A stretch of DNA of 21,813 nt, from positions 1 through 21,813 of IMG/VR virus record IMGVR_UViG_3300046467_001101; one strand, 5' to 3'. Positions within the stretch are counted from its first letter, which is position 1, and the number at the start of each line of letters is the position of its first letter. Shown in pieces: positions 5,323 to 12,855 of this stretch. The stretch is from a virus. Position numbers and translations under genes: made by a program. The notes under the pieces are model-generated. The model worked only from the letters and a program-made list of their open reading frames with translations. It was not told where the DNA came from and did not search any database.

Positions 5323-7704
5323 CTAGCTAATGGCTAATGGGTCTGTGTGTTCATCATATGTCTCCATAACCACTTCACCAAACACCCGATCTTTCACCAC
5401 CAGTTGTACTGGTTGGCGTTGGCGTTGCATCTTGTTTCTTCCCGCAGATACATTCGCCGTGGCTGTAGCCGTAGACCTGAGTGCTACTTTGTCAGCCGCG
5501 TTAGAGGCACTAAATGTAGCCTGGACTTCCCCCATCACTGCGCGCATGTTATCGAGATCACTAGTACTCACTTTGGTGGACACCGTTATTATTTTCTCAA
5601 GGCTCCCTAGGGCGTCTGTGGAGACAGCAATAAGAGCTAGGGCTCCAGCTATCCCGTACAACGCCGCCGTAAATATGCCTATCCCAACTAGTAGAAGGGG
5701 GTTCATAAACGCTATCGCAATCAGAGTTAGTCCCAGAGCCATTTTTCCCAAAAGATCGATGGTGTTGTCAATCTTGGGTCCTGTTTTTTCATAAAAGTCT
5801 ACAATGGTTTTTGTGATAGACCCAAAAGAGTCTTTAATAGCAGCCGCGGCTGGTCTAATGTTTGTAGCGACAGTTCCTAAAGCCAGACCCAACGACCCCA
5901 AGGCGACCGCCAATGAGAGGAGTGCGGCGACGCCTGCGGCAAATAACACAGCCCCCACACCCGTAAACATAACTGCGCCGAGACCAATAATGGCAAGTCC
6001 TAACAGGGCTATAGCGGCGGTCGCAACCCCCACTTCACCCATGCCCACCTCGACAAATGTGCCCATGGCCAGTCCCAGGAGGGCAATTGACCCAGCTAAA
6101 ATCGCTAGAACCAGGGCTCCCTTAGCAATCTGAGTCCAACTGATGGTCGATAGAGCTTTCCAGAAACCTTTCAAACCCACTCCTAAACTAGTGAGCAGTC
6201 CACCGCCTCCGGTTGAGCCAACAAGCCCCAAAGAAGTACCAAGCTTGGTAAACATACCAGTCACGAGTGGGAGAACCTTACCCATGGACATGAAAATACC
6301 CAAAAAAGTTCGAAATGCCGCCACAGCCAACCATATCTGTAAAATTCCCGTATCAGCCAAGAACCTCACGAAGGCGAGAGTCCCTTCGATGACCGGGGAG
6401 AGTGCCAGGAATACATCTTCTAAGGCGACCCTAAACTTATCCATCGCCGTTGTCATAGCTTCGGCACGCTCCGCCATCGCCTTTTGTTCTTTTTGGTATT
6501 TGCGTAATTTGACAGGATCTCCGAAGAGACGGCTAGCCATATCCACATCAACTCCCAACACTTCGGCTATAGCTTGTCTCTGACGTCGTCCCATATCCTT
6601 AAAGTTTTTGCCACGCAGATCAAACTCTTGTCGTAAAATTTTAATTCTATCCGCGTGACTTGCAGTCATCATCTGAACTGAATTAAGCTGGAGCCCGATT
6701 TGGGCATTTAATTTCCCGGCTAAGTCCGCTGCCCCCTGGAAAGTGTCAAATGCTTCTGCAATATTAAAGGCGTCCTGCACAGCCATTCCTAGACCTCTAG
6801 CCTGCTTTTGCAGGTCCATGAATACCTTTTTGCCTTGGGTTCCGTAGCGTGCCAACTGCTTCTGGAGGGTTCCAAAATCCTTTATCATTTGAGACGTCGG
6901 CAAACCTAATTGTTGAGAGAGCTTATCGAAGTCCTTCGCTGTTTGCTCGGCAGCCTTAACCGACATTCCCATGCCACGAGTGAGTCCGTCAAAGAATGCA
7001 CCTGTGTCTGCTGCTGCCACTCCCATCTTTTCGAGCATGGCAGTCGTGCGTCCCATGCTTTCTCGGGTTTCCGCGTTAAGTGTAGCAAACAGAGTGAACT
7101 GGCTATTTAATCCTCCCACAATTTCCCCGGCTTTAGCGATGCCAATGCCCATGCCCCTGGTGTTCCCCACCATGTTTTTCATATCTTCGTTGAGGGCGGT
7201 GGTATAGCCAGTGGTTTTTGCTAGAGCAACTTGGGCTGCGTCCAGACTATGCGCCATGCTTATAATCGCACTTGTCAGCCCCTTGACCGTGGTCAGTTCA
7301 TCTAGTTGGACTCCGGTGAGCTTATTCCCTAGAGATAATAGCTCTTGTTTGAGATCAATTTCTTGCCGACGGGCCTCGTTGGCTATTCGGAGTTGACGAT
7401 CAAACTCTTCTGTCTCAGAGGTGAGGTCAGTAAGAAGTTTTAACTCGTCTGCGGAAAGGTCTTTACCCAGAGCCTGAAGCTTGATTTGTTTTTCAAGTAG
7501 ATTGAGACGAGTTTTATTCTTCTTGTTAAGGTCTTCTATTATTGGCCCATCAAGCTTCATCGAAGCCTGTACAGCCTCTAAGGCAATGCGCCCAGCATTA
7601 GCTTCCTCTGCAATTTTTTTTCGAAGGAGAGCCTCTTGCTCTAGAGCACTTAAATCCTCGGGAGAAGGAATTGGAGTTTTGGTTTTGTCGTCACCATTAG
7701 CCAT
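5323..7704 (-). CDS. Tail tape measure protein
   Basis: A 793-residue protein that sets tail length and is carried inside the tube. Residues 1-160 are highly charged and helical with coiled-coil character. Residues about 160-430 are helical and rich in Ala, Met and Gly. From about 430 there are several long hydrophobic stretches (around 440-490, 525-620 and 655-700), including a glycine/alanine-rich series such as ALLGLAIIGLGAVMFTGVGA; such segments are usual in tape measures and may enter the host membrane at injection. The C-terminus is short and polar and ends DEHTDPLAIS. GAGGTG eight bases before ATG 7704 is a strong ribosome-binding site. It lies between the chaperone region and the baseplate genes, as expected. 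At the commonly used 0.15 nm per residue the tail would be about 120 nm long. The plus-strand frames over it are compositional shadows. Confidence 0.9.
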   Translation of the reverse strand: MANGDDKTKTPIPSPEDLSALEQEALLRKKIAEEANAGRIALEAVQASMKLDGPIIEDLNKKNKTRLNLLEKQIKLQALGKDLSADELKLLTDLTSETEEFDRQLRIANEARRQEIDLKQELLSLGNKLTGVQLDELTTVKGLTSAIISMAHSLDAAQVALAKTTGYTTALNEDMKNMVGNTRGMGIGIAKAGEIVGGLNSQFTLFATLNAETRESMGRTTAMLEKMGVAAADTGAFFDGLTRGMGMSVKAAEQTAKDFDKLSQQLGLPTSQMIKDFGTLQKQLARYGTQGKKVFMDLQKQARGLGMAVQDAFNIAEAFDTFQGAADLAGKLNAQIGLQLNSVQMMTASHADRIKILRQEFDLRGKNFKDMGRRQRQAIAEVLGVDVDMASRLFGDPVKLRKYQKEQKAMAERAEAMTTAMDKFRVALEDVFLALSPVIEGTLAFVRFLADTGILQIWLAVAAFRTFLGIFMSMGKVLPLVTGMFTKLGTSLGLVGSTGGGGLLTSLGVGLKGFWKALSTISWTQIAKGALVLAILAGSIALLGLAMGTFVEVGMGEVGVATAAIALLGLAIIGLGAVMFTGVGAVLFAAGVAALLSLAVALGSLGLALGTVATNIRPAAAAIKDSFGSITKTIVDFYEKTGPKIDNTIDLLGKMALGLTLIAIAFMNPLLLVGIGIFTAALYGIAGALALIAVSTDALGSLEKIITVSTKVSTSDLDNMRAVMGEVQATFSASNAADKVALRSTATATANVSAGRNKMQRQRQPVQLVVKDRVFGEVVMETYDEHTDPLAIS

Positions 7705-7715
7705 TAATGGTCACC

Positions 7716-8051
7716 TCAGTTCCGAATGGGCCAACTTATGCCGGATTCGCGTTCAAACCTTTTAATTGCCACATCAAGCTTCCCCTTCTGAGAATACGTC
7801 ATAGGCTTATCAAGTCCGTACTTCTTTATATAATCCATGTACCGCTTTTCATTTACAAGGGCATCTGTGAATCTTTCTACTTCGATCTTATTCCCTCGGA
7901 CTCTGACCGGGATTCGTCTTCCCTTGTACATTTTAGAGAGCAAATACGATATCCAAGCGGCGAAGACTTGGAGAATATTTTCATTAAGCTGACCCTTGCG
8001 GGCAGCACCTAAATCAAATACGACTTCTTCTAGCTGTTCTTCGGTGAGCAT
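7716..8051 (-). CDS. Small conserved-type hypothetical between tail chaperone and tape measure
   Basis: A 111-residue soluble protein beginning MLTEEQLEEVVFDLGAARKG. The N-terminal half is predicted helical (ILQVFAAWISYLLSKMYKG); the centre is basic (RRIPVRVRGNKIEVERF) and may form a beta hairpin; the end is a charged helix and the tail SGISWPIRN. GAGG precedes ATG 8051 by about seven bases. It ends 11 bases before the tape measure start. I do not recognise a family. The position suggests a role in tail assembly, for example a second chaperone acting on the tape measure or a minor tail protein, but nothing in the sequence decides this. Confidence 0.75.
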   Translation of the reverse strand: MLTEEQLEEVVFDLGAARKGQLNENILQVFAAWISYLLSKMYKGRRIPVRVRGNKIEVERFTDALVNEKRYMDYIKKYGLDKPMTYSQKGKLDVAIKRFERESGISWPIRN

Positions 8052-8115: not shown

Positions 8116-8316
8116 CTAGCGACTGCGAGTTTTAGCTTTTCTCATTGCCTCTTCGTGCATCTCGGCTTCATCTTTCTTCTGTTTGCCTAAGCGCGTCAAA
8201 AACCAGCGTCTTATGACGACTGGAAGGTTGTATGCTTCAAAAAAGCTCCATCCCCCATAATATTTGAGTTGAAAAAACTCTTCGTAGACGCCTTCAGCGT
8301 ATTCGTCACTTAGGCC
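8116..8316 (-). CDS. Frameshift extension of the gp26-like tail assembly chaperone (lambda GT-like T domain)
   Basis: A 66-codon frame that overlaps the last codons of the gp26-like gene and continues to a TAG at 8116-8118. It encodes GLSDEYAEGVYEEFFQLKYY, then GGWSFFEAYNLPVVIRRWF, then a basic helix ending KAKTRSR. There is no ATG, GTG or TTG before the motif; the first in-frame ATG is codon 53 and a TTG is codon 40, so it is not a normal independent gene. The frame connects to gp26 through seven T residues (8317-8323) by a +1 or -2 shift, giving a fusion of about 352 residues. Tail chaperone extensions of this kind occur just upstream of tape measure genes. The pattern of a helix, an LP and R-R-W-F resembles small proteins next to gp26 in T4-like phages, from memory. 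A missing or extra base in the T run is the main alternative. Confidence 0.6.
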   Translation of the reverse strand, partial: GLSDEYAEGVYEEFFQLKYYGGWSFFEAYNLPVVIRRWFLTRLGKQKKDEAEMHEEAMRKAKTRSR

Positions 8317-9175
8317 AAAAAAAGTCGATGGTCAGCGGAACCTCCATGTCCGCGGAGTAGCCACATGAACTGCACTCGTATATTTGGGAGAGGTCAACAT
8401 TGGGAGCAACCTCTCCATAAAAAGTTCGAAGAAACTTAGAATCGCGTGCGGGCATTGCGCTAATAAAGCTAGCAATTGTGAACACATCATTGTCTCCATT
8501 AACCGACACGATGAACGACCTAAATTGGTCGGTTAAAGGCGATTCTGCCATTTTCTTTTTGTTCTTCCGTTGGGTTTCCTTAAAGAGCTTCATTTCATCC
8601 GCTCCCGTCAGGAGGCGGCATTCGACCTTAGCCTTTGTCAGTGGAGCTTCTACAATAAAAGTATTGTTGGCAGTCAAAATCGCTCCGTGAGTAGTCACAG
8701 CAGCCTCAACATTTTTCGTTTCGCCGTCGTTCAGGTCGAATGAATAATCCTCCGATTCGTCACACGAAGGACATGTTACTTTGGTGGCATACTCATTTCC
8801 ATACCCCGTAATCCGTGCTGCAATAATGAGGGCGTTTTTATCTCCGACCAACAAGGAGTTGAGATTGATGCTTTTATCAACCAATAGGTTCTCTAGTACT
8901 CTGTCAATTGCTACCCCGGCTTTAATCAAAGAACGAGAGGTAAGAATATCTTCTTCCTTAGCCGTCATGTATTTAATTTCTACCGTCTCTTCATTGTGAA
9001 GAGGGTGACTAGAGTTATAAAACCTTCCTTGGCTGGGAAGTTTTACCATCTCTGTGGGAGTGGCCCACGAAAATCCCCCACCCGCCGCTCCAGTAGCAGC
9101 GGGAGCCGGGGAATTCTCATCCAAGTCTAGAATATCTTCGTCCTCGATGCCGAGGCGTTCTTTATTTCTGCTCAT
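8306..9175 (-). CDS. 26: gp26-like baseplate/tail assembly chaperone (T4_baseplate family)
   Basis: A 289-residue protein resembling T4 gp26-type proteins, which act in hub and tail assembly and occupy the lambda gpG slot between tube and tape measure. An acidic, Ala/Gly-rich N-terminus (1-40) precedes the family-like block KLPSQGRFYNSSHPLH (45-60), IKYMTAKEEDILTSRSLI (67-84) and the helical region LVGDKNALIIAARITGYG (109-126). Two CxxC pairs, C135/C138 (CPSC) and C268/C271 (CSSC), probably bind zinc together. It ends DFFWPK followed by TGA. AAAGG precedes ATG 9175. The last codons contain a T7 run from which a second frame continues. The T4 name rests on pattern recognition rather than alignment. 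Confidence 0.75.
   Translation of the reverse strand: MSRNKERLGIEDEDILDLDENSPAPAATGAAGGGFSWATPTEMVKLPSQGRFYNSSHPLHNEETVEIKYMTAKEEDILTSRSLIKAGVAIDRVLENLLVDKSINLNSLLVGDKNALIIAARITGYGNEYATKVTCPSCDESEDYSFDLNDGETKNVEAAVTTHGAILTANNTFIVEAPLTKAKVECRLLTGADEMKLFKETQRKNKKKMAESPLTDQFRSFIVSVNGDNDVFTIASFISAMPARDSKFLRTFYGEVAPNVDLSQIYECSSCGYSADMEVPLTIDFFWPK
8314..8323 (-). promoter_or_regulatory. Candidate programmed ribosomal frameshift site (T7 run)
   Basis: On the minus strand the end of the gp26-like gene reads GAC TTT TTT TGG CCT AAG TGA. Phe-tRNA on the second TTT can re-pair perfectly after a +1 slip or a -2 slip on the seven T bases. Either event enters the 66-codon frame starting GGC. A -1 slip does not reach that frame. 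The zero-frame stop lies only three codons downstream, so unshifted ribosomes end almost at once. No strong downstream hairpin was obvious by eye. Confidence 0.5.
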
Positions 9176-9206: not shown

Positions 9207-9749
9207 TTAGCCAACGGCTCCCGCAGCATATTGTACCCCAGTGCCGGATGTTTCAAGCTTCGCATAATCAAACGCAATTTCTAAAGTAATTTCCTGCATG
9301 TCGTCAGAGCTATAGTCCAATGCGCCTCCGAAGTCAACACTACTTATCCAGGGATTAGTGAGTGTCCATGTTTCAATTACTTTGCCATCGCCATTAATCT
9401 GAGAAATGCTCACCCCAATAAGTCCCTTTTGGACAGAGTCTTTTTTACTGATGGTGCCGCGCTTATTTTCATCTTCCGGATATTCATATCCCGACTGGAT
9501 AAGGCGCTCAAGCATAGTCTTAGCCATATCCGGGTCATAGGGGTCAACTAGTGTAACGCTAATAGGGTCCCACGTTACACGCCCAGGATACTTAAAAGTA
9601 TGATTCAAGAAAACGTGCTCAATTGTGCTGACCGTTGCTTTCGGCTTGGCGGCTGTTTTAATAACCCAGACCGGGATGTTCCCAATATTAAGAATATACC
9701 GGTATCTACGCTTCGGATCAAGATTGGAGTTATTCCAAAAAAATGCCAT
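9207..9749 (-). CDS. 19: Tail tube protein (gp19-like)
   Basis: A 180-residue protein of the T4 gp19 tube family, which stacks as hexamer rings to form the inner DNA conduit. Family-like features are the start MAFFWNNSNLDPKRRYRYIL, the beta segments IPVWVIKTAAKPKATVSTIE and FKYPGRVTWDPISVTLVDPY, and the closing EITLEIAFDYAKLE. Length is close to T4 gp19 (about 163). AGGAG upstream of ATG 9749 is a strong ribosome-binding site. It follows the sheath gene by 49 bases, and a TATATAATAG element lies in that gap, so it may also have its own late promoter. Confidence 0.93.
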   Translation of the reverse strand: MAFFWNNSNLDPKRRYRYILNIGNIPVWVIKTAAKPKATVSTIEHVFLNHTFKYPGRVTWDPISVTLVDPYDPDMAKTMLERLIQSGYEYPEDENKRGTISKKDSVQKGLIGVSISQINGDGKVIETWTLTNPWISSVDFGGALDYSSDDMQEITLEIAFDYAKLETSGTGVQYAAGAVG

Positions 9750-9798: not shown

Positions 9799-12700
9799 TT
9801 AATCCTCGAACGATGCCCCGCTGTTAGTCACTACAAAATCAATAGCAAAGAACTCCGCTGCCCGTGTGGGCTTGACGAGAAGCTTTGCATAAATAATATT
9901 CCTATCAATAAGGTCTGGAGTGGTTGTACTCTCATCCAAGATAAGTTTAAAATCTTCCACGCCGAACTGAGATTTCACGTCTGTTAAGATCGGAGTTGCA
10001 CGCTGTTTAAACCGCGTCCAAGTGTCTTGGGTATTCGGAGCGAAAAGAAGTCGCGACGCGATGAAAGAAATTTCCCGCTTGAGATAAATCAACAAGCGGC
10101 GTACATTAATACGATCCAAGGCTGATGCGGTCTGTTGGAGAGTTTTTTGCCCAAAGATTACAATGCCTTCCGCAGGGAATTTAGCGATGGGGTTAATGTT
10201 TGCCCCATAGAGAGAATCTCGATCATCAGATGTGAGGCGCTTCGATGTATCTAGCACCGGCACGCCGCCGCCGCCTTCCGACAAACCTCCGCGCGCAAAG
10301 CCGGCGGGAGCATACCATGGAGCCGCTATTTTATCAGTATGGGATAAGGCTCCCAAAGCGACAACGGAAGGTGGAGACCACAAACTTCGTCCAGAGATGC
10401 TATCATTTATCAAGACCCATGGGTAGTACGTCGCCCCGTAGCTGGTATTAATATTACGATCTTTTATCGCATCCACAGCCTGCTTAACAGTAAAGCTATT
10501 GCGGCTTTGAGCCGACTCAGCGTTTTCTGTGTCGGGAGTATACACATTCTTAATATCAATAATCGCTAGTGCATCACCCCGATCTTCTGCCATGTCGAGA
10601 AGATAATTGGTCACCACATTTTGTGTCTGCCCTGGAATCGTCACCGCGTTCATCTGAACTACCTCGGCGTCGCTTACCACGTTAATCGCTTTCTTGAGTG
10701 AAAAGAGCGGATAAGACAATTCTTGATTTGTCGCAGCGTCAAACGTAGTAGATAGGCGGAAAGGATCTCTCTCGGCTATGTCAAAGCCGTCCGATCCGCC
10801 ATGTAACAACGTCGTAAACTGATCATATCCCGCTGCCAAGGTTCCAGTGTAGCTGAACTTCGCCGACAAGCTCGTCCCAGCAACACGGTTCCCCCCTCCA
10901 TATGCGCCTGTAATAGCGACATTGGCGCTGTTAAGACTACCCGACACATCGTCCAGTGAGAATACCCACGCAGTTTGTATGGCGTCTGACAGACCCAAGC
11001 TCTGAGAGGCGGCACTCACAAGATCGTGAGTAACTGCGTCCGGAGTTGTCTGGAATCCTTTAGCCGGGGAGCGCAAAACATCGACTATCTGTGCTGCCAT
11101 CTGAGGATTAGTGGCAGTTTGTCCGGTCCAGGCTCCCCAATACACTTGGCTGTTGCCACGGGGGCGACCCCAGATGCTCTGCTTCCGAAGCGGAACACTG
11201 GGCCACTGGATAGAACCACTGAACCGATAACTCACGCTGGATGCCCATGAGGGAACATTGCCCAGCGATAGTTTAGCCTCGCTTCCGGGGTAATCTGGGG
11301 CATCGGATGGGTTCGTGTGACCACCAATGTCGCCATATTCTGATTGACCGCCGCCTTCTGTCATTGATGCGGCGATGCCTTGAGCTATTCCAGCTTCGCC
11401 GGCTTGCGGCTTCATCAGAGGTAGCGTATTTGCGGCAGCGATGCCGTAATACACAGATCCCGATGCCCAGGTTACGTTTCGGTATTGGGGCGGTCCCCAC
11501 ATGCCAAACGGCAGCAGGCGCGTATCTGTGCCACCTCGGTCCACAGTCTCATCCATCTCTACACGAATAAAGCGCGAGTTGTTCTCATACTGTCCATATT
11601 CCCGATTGTCTTCCAAGTCGGAATCATAGACTAAAAATCTGTCCCCTACAACTTGTGCAATGTAGTTGGCGGAAGCAGGGTTTAAATTCAGGCTATCAAA
11701 ACGTTCCAATATCACAGGAGCGCCGTCCGTGTCCGATAATTTTCGGACAAGAAGGGAAAAGGTTCCATATTGCTCAAAGTCTCCTCGGGGAGCCTTAATA
11801 TTGGTAATAGAGATTTTAACTTCTTCCTGAGTGGATGATCCCGCTGTGCGGGAGACTACGCGGAACAACCTTTGCATATCCTTCGACGCGTAGGAAGCGG
11901 CTACCCCCAAATCCTGAGAAATAAACCACCCGGTAGTTCCGATGGTCGAACTGTATTGCCTATCGCTTCCCTGTTCCGCGGAACCACGTTGGTTCTGAAG
12001 AGGAATGATAGTGGCGAAAGCGCTCGTAGCAATAGAAGCCCCCAAGAGACCAATACTGGAATCTCCAGAGGCTAACAAAGATCGCTCATATGATTCGCCT
12101 AGCCAGTAATTACCGCCCTGAGCAGCGCTTCTGGCTGCGGCGGTGGTAATATCGCTATTGGTAATGGTAGGATTAGTATTTAATACATTACGAATAAAAT
12201 TAGGCTGCGCTGGGTCAAGGCTTACTTTTACCTTTTTAATGTTCGCAGCGGTGCCATCCGAAGTAAATCCTAGAGTCACTTCACGGTTAGTGATCTTATA
12301 CATTTCACATGCGGACCCAGTGGCAGCACCATCTGTACGAGTTCCGTCGATAATGACGCGTCCACCCGGACAATACATCACTGCTGCCAGGGATCCAGTA
12401 AAGGTGGTGCCGACATCCATGGCACCACTCGGCCACACGACCAAGCCCCACGCTCCACCGTCTGCTGGGGTTACGTTGGCTGTTCCTGCTTTCCAGCCGG
12501 CAAAGCCCGCCGATGATGCATCTTGGTCTTGGTCGCCCAGTAGACGAACAAAGGTTAAGGGACTACTATTTCTCAGCCACGCTTGAGCCGCAAATGGTCC
12601 GTAGGTAGGGGCGCTATTGTTTCCCTCACGCCAGTAGTCTCCGGGCTCAGGTCCTGCAATAGGATCACCAAAGGTGTTCACAAAGTCAGAAAAAGATGAA

Positions 12701-12855
12701 ACTTTCACGGGAATCATTCCCGGTCCTTTGCGTGCTGTTCCAATTACCACGGGGCCCACAGAAGAAGGGGTGTCCGGTAGCTGGGAGTTATCGATCTCAT
12801 CAATGAATACCCCAGGTGAGATAAACTTGAACTTTCTTGAAGAATTATCCGCCAT
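9799..12855 (-). CDS. 18: Tail sheath protein (gp18-like), unusually long
   Basis: A 1018-residue contractile sheath subunit. The N-terminus has the sheath signature FISPGVFIDEIDNSQLPDTP, then GPVVIGTARKGPG (about 10-45). The C-terminus has the conserved polymerisation domain: INVRRLLIYLKREISFIASR, then FAPNTQDTWTRFKQRA, then LVKPTRAAEFFAIDFVV. T4 gp18 is 659 residues, so roughly 360 extra residues are present, mostly in the Gly/Ser/Thr-rich middle (about 100-800). These presumably form surface domains on the sheath exterior. AGGAG is well placed before ATG 12855. The gene follows the gp15-like gene by about 100 bases and precedes the tube gene. Confidence 0.95.
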   Translation of the reverse strand: MADNSSRKFKFISPGVFIDEIDNSQLPDTPSSVGPVVIGTARKGPGMIPVKVSSFSDFVNTFGDPIAGPEPGDYWREGNNSAPTYGPFAAQAWLRNSSPLTFVRLLGDQDQDASSAGFAGWKAGTANVTPADGGAWGLVVWPSGAMDVGTTFTGSLAAVMYCPGGRVIIDGTRTDGAATGSACEMYKITNREVTLGFTSDGTAANIKKVKVSLDPAQPNFIRNVLNTNPTITNSDITTAAARSAAQGGNYWLGESYERSLLASGDSSIGLLGASIATSAFATIIPLQNQRGSAEQGSDRQYSSTIGTTGWFISQDLGVAASYASKDMQRLFRVVSRTAGSSTQEEVKISITNIKAPRGDFEQYGTFSLLVRKLSDTDGAPVILERFDSLNLNPASANYIAQVVGDRFLVYDSDLEDNREYGQYENNSRFIRVEMDETVDRGGTDTRLLPFGMWGPPQYRNVTWASGSVYYGIAAANTLPLMKPQAGEAGIAQGIAASMTEGGGQSEYGDIGGHTNPSDAPDYPGSEAKLSLGNVPSWASSVSYRFSGSIQWPSVPLRKQSIWGRPRGNSQVYWGAWTGQTATNPQMAAQIVDVLRSPAKGFQTTPDAVTHDLVSAASQSLGLSDAIQTAWVFSLDDVSGSLNSANVAITGAYGGGNRVAGTSLSAKFSYTGTLAAGYDQFTTLLHGGSDGFDIAERDPFRLSTTFDAATNQELSYPLFSLKKAINVVSDAEVVQMNAVTIPGQTQNVVTNYLLDMAEDRGDALAIIDIKNVYTPDTENAESAQSRNSFTVKQAVDAIKDRNINTSYGATYYPWVLINDSISGRSLWSPPSVVALGALSHTDKIAAPWYAPAGFARGGLSEGGGGVPVLDTSKRLTSDDRDSLYGANINPIAKFPAEGIVIFGQKTLQQTASALDRINVRRLLIYLKREISFIASRLLFAPNTQDTWTRFKQRATPILTDVKSQFGVEDFKLILDESTTTPDLIDRNIIYAKLLVKPTRAAEFFAIDFVVTNSGASFED

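Follow-up and report, generated by a model that had tools for sequence, protein, structure and literature searches.

Very probable +1 programmed ribosomal frameshifting for the tail assembly chaperone pair of a T4-like phage clade

In phage lambda, the tail assembly chaperones gpG and gpGT are the short and long forms of one protein and result from a -1 frameshift. The lambda model assigns binding of the tape measure to the G part and binding of the tube protein to the T part (PMC5009743). HK97 gp13 belongs to the same kind of arrangement, and an efficiency of 6 to 7% was measured for the frameshift in an HK97-type chaperone cluster (PMC3711429). T4 is listed as the exception among the long-tailed phages, whose chaperone pairs come from a frameshift (PMC5009743). 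According to papers that cite it, the study of Vladimirov, Gautam & Davidson (2022, Virology) deals with the identifiable chaperone genes of T4-like phages. Forward shifts have been described as well: the tail chaperone frameshift of the haloarchaeal HSTV-2 is very likely +1, and forward chaperone frameshifts are found among actinophages in the PRFect training set. A +1 shift is also known from RF2 (prfB), where, at CUU_UGA, the tRNA on a P-site YUU codon followed by U moves +1 onto UUU; the A-site codon there is a stop, and a Shine-Dalgarno sequence lies upstream.

The locus described here lies on a 21.8-kb fragment of an uncultured virus from IMG/VR, the whole of which is called the window. 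It resembles lambda gpG/gpGT and HK97 gp13 in its position between the tube and tape measure genes and in the short and long forms that a frameshift would yield, and the fold predicted for its short form is a modest match to that of HK97 gp13. In contrast to lambda, the programmed frameshift at this locus is very probably +1. This direction is shared with HSTV-2 and the PRFect actinophages, which are likened here by description and are not known as members of the gp26 family. A large, mostly uncultured T4-like clade, with some cultured members, appears to obtain its chaperone pair from a single gene in this way. No description of the +1 site of this clade was found in the open-access papers searched, and +1 sites in gp26 relatives may have been reported before.

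The gp26-like gene and its overlapping frame

The minus strand of the window carries a myovirus structural module that extends from the head maturation protease through the baseplate wedge protein and includes the major head protein, the sheath, a gp19-like tube, the gp26-like protein, a small ORF and the tape measure protein. The tail tube gene (9207-9749, minus strand; PF06841, E 1e-5; PHROG 4542, E 4e-23) adjoins the gp26-like gene directly upstream. The tape measure gene (5323-7704, minus strand; PHROG 167, E 4e-7) is located downstream, with one small ORF in between. The gp26-like gene is thus found at the position of a G/GT-type gene. The small ORF (7716-8051, minus strand; 111 residues) has no match in Pfam or PHROG; ORFs starting like LTEDQLEEMVFDL also come after the T domain in three relatives (L002, L009 and L010). 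The tail sheath protein of the window (9799-12855, minus strand) is very long, with 1018 aa. The roughly 500 positions of a sheath profile are stretched across its residues 11-1016, so it probably contains large inserted or surface domains.

The gp26-like gene (8306-9175, minus strand) encodes a protein of 289 aa, the putative short chaperone, called TAC-N. This protein belongs to PF12322 (T4_baseplate), with 49.9 bits for a curated cut-off of 24.5, and matches PHROG 150 (baseplate hub). Its predicted structure, built like that of the T domain from sequences of the window and IMG/VR alone, is confident (pLDDT 88.9). Among 357 chains of solved structures compared, YqbN (Z 5.6) and HK97 gp13 (Z 5.1) ranked as the top two, with modest Z values and a match over residues about 30-127; a search of solved structures by sequence found no relative. 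In PMC9603447, YqbN and HK97 gp13 are each counted among the tail assembly chaperones. The position of the gene, its place in PF12322 and the best matches of the confident model point to a chaperone, and the original prediction of a short G-like protein with the second frame as its extension holds up. TAC-N also contains two CxxC pairs (CPSC and CSSC, residues about 134-137 and 268-272). Cysteine pairs are similarly placed in T4 gp26 and gp51 and are lost in several relatives; the motifs suggest a zinc-ribbon-like element.

The zero frame ends with GAC (8326-8324), TTT (8323-8321), TTT (8320-8318), TGG (8317-8315), CCT (8314-8312), AAG and the stop TGA (8308-8306, minus strand), which terminates the short product. 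The second frame, +1 relative to it and equivalent to -2, is open from just past a TGA at 8334-8332 (minus strand) to a TAG at 8118-8116. As this TGA is in frame, the T frame has no start codon of its own ahead of the slip site. Its first ATG is codon 53, counting from GGC (8316-8314), and a TTG is found at about codon 40, within the conserved core. The sequence of the gene end, the overlapping frame without usable start and the ATG at codon 53 are exactly as the original prediction had them. The second frame encodes TFFGLSDEYAEGVYEEFFQLKYYGGWSFFEAYNLPVVIRRWFLTRLGKQKKDEAEMHEEAMRKAKTRSR. By composition it would stay open by chance in about 1.5% of cases, so its openness alone is weak evidence.

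The T domain, from GGC to TAG (8116-8316, minus strand), is predicted by AlphaFold2 to be a compact three-helix unit (pLDDT 91.6). Comparison of this model with solved structures gave nothing useful, and no family of such fold is thereby ruled out. Against DUF6760 (PF20546), the T domain of the window scores 13.4 bits (E 0.084), below the curated cut-off of 27 bits. Among 91 relatives, 33 have a T domain that matches the same family weakly, at E up to 0.1, the best at 3e-5. These matches hint that DUF6760 may include related chaperone parts, as a lead to distant kinship only. Searches with PF20546, on controls and 192 genomes of one phylum, yielded no match and hence no link to a bacterial gene.

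In the records examined, the second frame is either left unjoined or annotated as a short orphan, an annotation that is corrected here. An orphan of 36-45 residues, started at an internal ATG, is annotated in Syn1 (L266), KBS-M-1A (L259), immuto (L083) and SP-15 (L084). It is named 'gp51' in the cyanophages and hypothetical elsewhere, and the front of the domain is lost.

Conservation of the slip site and of the second frame

Viral contigs were scanned with the window protein and relatives as queries, and the counts of relatives given here are among the matches listed (at least 240, later at least 248). The slip site TTT TTT TGG CCT (8312-8323 in the window, minus strand, in zero-frame codons) is identical in 182 of the 240 listed relatives with a readable junction, each with a homologous +1 second frame. 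Another 41 of the 240 have TTT CTT TGG CCT, and the remainder differ only slightly. In 238/240, the +1 frame is matched by a profile of the second-frame domain; this profile was made from +1-frame translations, which biases the test towards +1. After further scans, the domain was found in +1 in 245 of 248 listed non-identical relatives. The alternative frames soon close, the median number of open codons after the site being 2 in the -1 frame vs 76 in +1. For 57 independent pairs, the median dN/dS in the +1 frame is 0.13, with every pair below 1, as compared to medians of 1.25 and 1.68 for the same DNA in the other two frames. The alignment of relatives thus bore out that slip site and second frame are both conserved, the latter under purifying selection. 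The two frames are under purifying selection and the slip site is conserved; the direction and the gene order are shown as well, and the second frame is conserved as a protein reached at a conserved slippery site, as in a G/GT-type pair.

The same +1 arrangement is present in the cultured phages Flavobacterium immuto, Microcystis Mel-JY01, Bacillus SP-15, Listeria LIS04, Streptococcus GXN1 and Streptomyces BRock. Bacterial genomes gave just two matches, both metagenome-assembled and each with TTT TTT TGG CCT and the +1 domain. In the plasmids searched, no relative was found.

Relatives retain the site in the form TTT-YTT-TGG-CCT. Across 198 distinct contexts, TTT stands at the first codon in 192, TTC in 3 and CTT in 3; the second is TTT in 160, CTT in 35, CTA in 3 and TTC in none. 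In the same genes, TTC makes up 25% of the Phe codons and TTA is the commonest Leu codon. The base ahead of the run is T in 0 of 192 contexts of the +1 group. The Asp codons GAC:GAT occur as 33:0 at the site vs 348:1220 in the rest of the genes. A like avoidance of T ahead of the run is seen for AAC:AAT, AGC:AGT and TCC:TCT. Simple binomial values overstate this case, as the relatives share ancestry, but the codon bias still counts because synonymous third positions would drift across such divergence. The same picture is obtained with 76 clusters at 60% identity. These codon patterns indicate that the site is selected for recoding, beyond protein coding. In the wider set, a T precedes the run in 6 of the 248 listed +1-group relatives: in L025 the anchor is mis-set, in L385 and L391 a C interrupts the run, L049 and L369 have TTC TTC TGG and do carry the domain in -1, and L358 is a real exception.

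Proposed mechanism and alternative explanations

It is highly likely that +1 programmed ribosomal frameshifting at this locus yields a pair of tail assembly chaperones. Most ribosomes would read the gp26-like frame to its TGA, resulting in TAC-N. Some would slip by +1 base while Phe-tRNA occupies a YUU codon with U as the next base (UUU UUU UGG); in some relatives, the slipping tRNA would be Leu-tRNA. The slipped ribosomes would add the 66-residue three-helix T domain and produce the long form TAC-NC, with a junction that would read ...LTIDFFGLSDEY.... If lambda gpG/gpGT is taken as the model, coating of the tape measure would fall to the N part and recruitment of tube protein to the T domain; placing N on the tape measure and T on the tube protein is the most likely assignment. 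The earlier proposal that the T domain recruits the tape measure is probably reversed, judged by the lambda model (PMC5009743). Slippage in vivo, its efficiency, the YUU codon that slips and the protein contacts are points that we infer.

As in RF2, a P-site YUU codon is followed by U, onto which the tRNA would move +1, and the CUU variant of the relatives is identical to RF2 at the P site. Such re-pairing on YUU_U at +1 is found throughout, except for the CTA variants at the second codon, which re-pair at +1 on the first. Unlike in RF2, the A-site codon is UGG. It is no stop, and we know of no special slowness of UGG. No Shine-Dalgarno sequence was seen at the RF2 distance upstream of the site. 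The signal for downstream RNA structure is weak and not convincing, with a mean z of about -0.7 vs -0.2 and -0.4 in control stretches. The site is unusually clean, with a nearly fixed UUU-YUU-UGG and no clear stimulatory structure. In four loci (L097, L108, L119 and L122) the site is TTT CTA TGG CCT and the +1 domain is kept. Since CUA is unable to re-pair at +1, the slip in these four would occur at the first codon, and which of the two codons slips may differ among relatives.

The domain is found in +1 in the relatives, which agrees with the original choice of +1 over the -1 mode of lambda. That prediction left open "+1 or -2", and a -2 ribosomal shift at the T run would indeed lead to the same frame, with DFFFGL instead of DFFGL. 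Both shifts re-pair in the window, -2 is feasible at TTT TTT and TTT CTT sites in general, and -2 shifts have a precedent among phages in Mu. However, relatives with TTC TTT TGG (L042, L047, L065, L385 and L391) re-pair at +1 and not at -2, and so do GXN1 (TTC TTT CGT) and BRock (CTG TTT CGC). As the TTC TTT TGG relatives cannot re-pair at -2, this half of the prediction is disfavoured, and we regard such a shift as quite improbable. The T domain might also be made separately, through a start codon of its own, a non-standard start or reinitiation past the zero-frame stop, and short orphans from internal ATGs are annotated in database records. An ATG, GTG or TTG does lie near the site in some T frames, but 56 of 198 have none within 15 codons past the slip site; a start codon of its own, which the original prediction named as a refutation, is not conserved. 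Moreover, conservation of the frame sets in at the slip site, FFGL is nearly invariant, and T4 gp51 appears to have the equivalent part fused, all of which makes a separate protein highly improbable.

Slippage of the polymerase on the T7 run could join the frames through length-altered mRNAs, and T7 is present in the window and most relatives. Relatives with TTTCTTTGG, TTCTTTTGG, TTCTTTCG or CTGTTTCG, on the other hand, have no long run and keep the same +1 domain. With a T run of at most four in several relatives, transcription slippage is less fitting and, in our judgement, extremely unlikely. Homopolymer runs are also prone to error, and the alternative given originally was that one base of the T run is wrong, here taken as a fault of sequencing or assembly. 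The same frame break with the same codons is found in 198 distinct homologous contexts, drawn from numerous assemblies as well as several isolate genomes, some of these contexts without a long T run or any homopolymer. Such an error is thereby ruled out, and the retention of the domain in 245 of the 248 listed relatives excludes it as well.

Relatives with a -1 domain and the two genes of T4

In addition to loci with the proposed +1 frameshift, the gp26 family contains others that appear to shift in the opposite direction. In the cyanophages Syn1 and KBS-M-1A and in the jumbo phages PA5oct, Atu_ph07, BF, RaK2, XacN1 and RAS14, the gp26-type gene has T TTT TTY at its end, with a domain in the -1 frame after it. 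This domain is related or similarly placed, the profile match being weak for Atu_ph07, PA5oct and XacN1. As in the window, a Phe-Phe codon pair within a T run marks the end of these genes, and an overlapping frame comes next; unlike in the window, a T stands ahead of this pair and the -1 frame holds the domain. In cyanophage contigs, the T before the codon pair and the domain in -1 were found in 68/68. Viral scans with the PA5oct query gave three loci and with the RAS14 query none. In the window, the base preceding the run is a C (8324, minus strand), and a T here would give the heptamer U UUU UUU. This heptamer suits a -1 shift.

From the base before the run, it follows that the codon phase of the T run tracks the direction of the shift across the family. 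A fairly likely reading is that this phase sets the direction and that lineages moved between +1, -1 and, in T4, gene duplication. A T before the pair would then probably give -1, as in cyanophages and jumbo phages. No T before and a T after would, with similar likelihood, give +1, as in the window's clade, some Gram-positive myoviruses and an actinophage. If true, the family is a natural series for the evolution of recoding direction. With homologues in which the T run is moved by one base and the direction is opposite, the choice of direction is testable with small reporters.

In T4, the match to PF12322 covers residues 1 to about 200 of gp26 (208 aa) as well as of gp51 (249 aa), and gp51 is about 48 residues longer past this shared part. 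A fused profile of the window type aligns to the end of T4-like gp51 with a pairwise E of 1.7e-4, the T domain alone with 0.015. T4 thus appears to hold the two forms as genes 26 (short) and 51 (long). As proposed for the window, there is a short PF12322 form and a long one with a C-terminal extension that may correspond to the T domain, to which it aligns; T4 differs in having two separate genes instead of a single gene with a +1 frame. These two genes look like another way of answering this need for a short and a long form.

The short-form tree is deep, with partial support. T4-type genes form one clade (99/96), and in 72% of bootstraps a branch has the +1 group on one side. The -1 group is found in two places, with the cyanophages beside T4 and the jumbo phages beside the +1 group. 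Within the +1 group, the two relatives L049 and L369, on separate contigs, have TTC TTC TGG, a T before the run and a -1 domain, apparently the outcome of a recent switch from +1 to -1.
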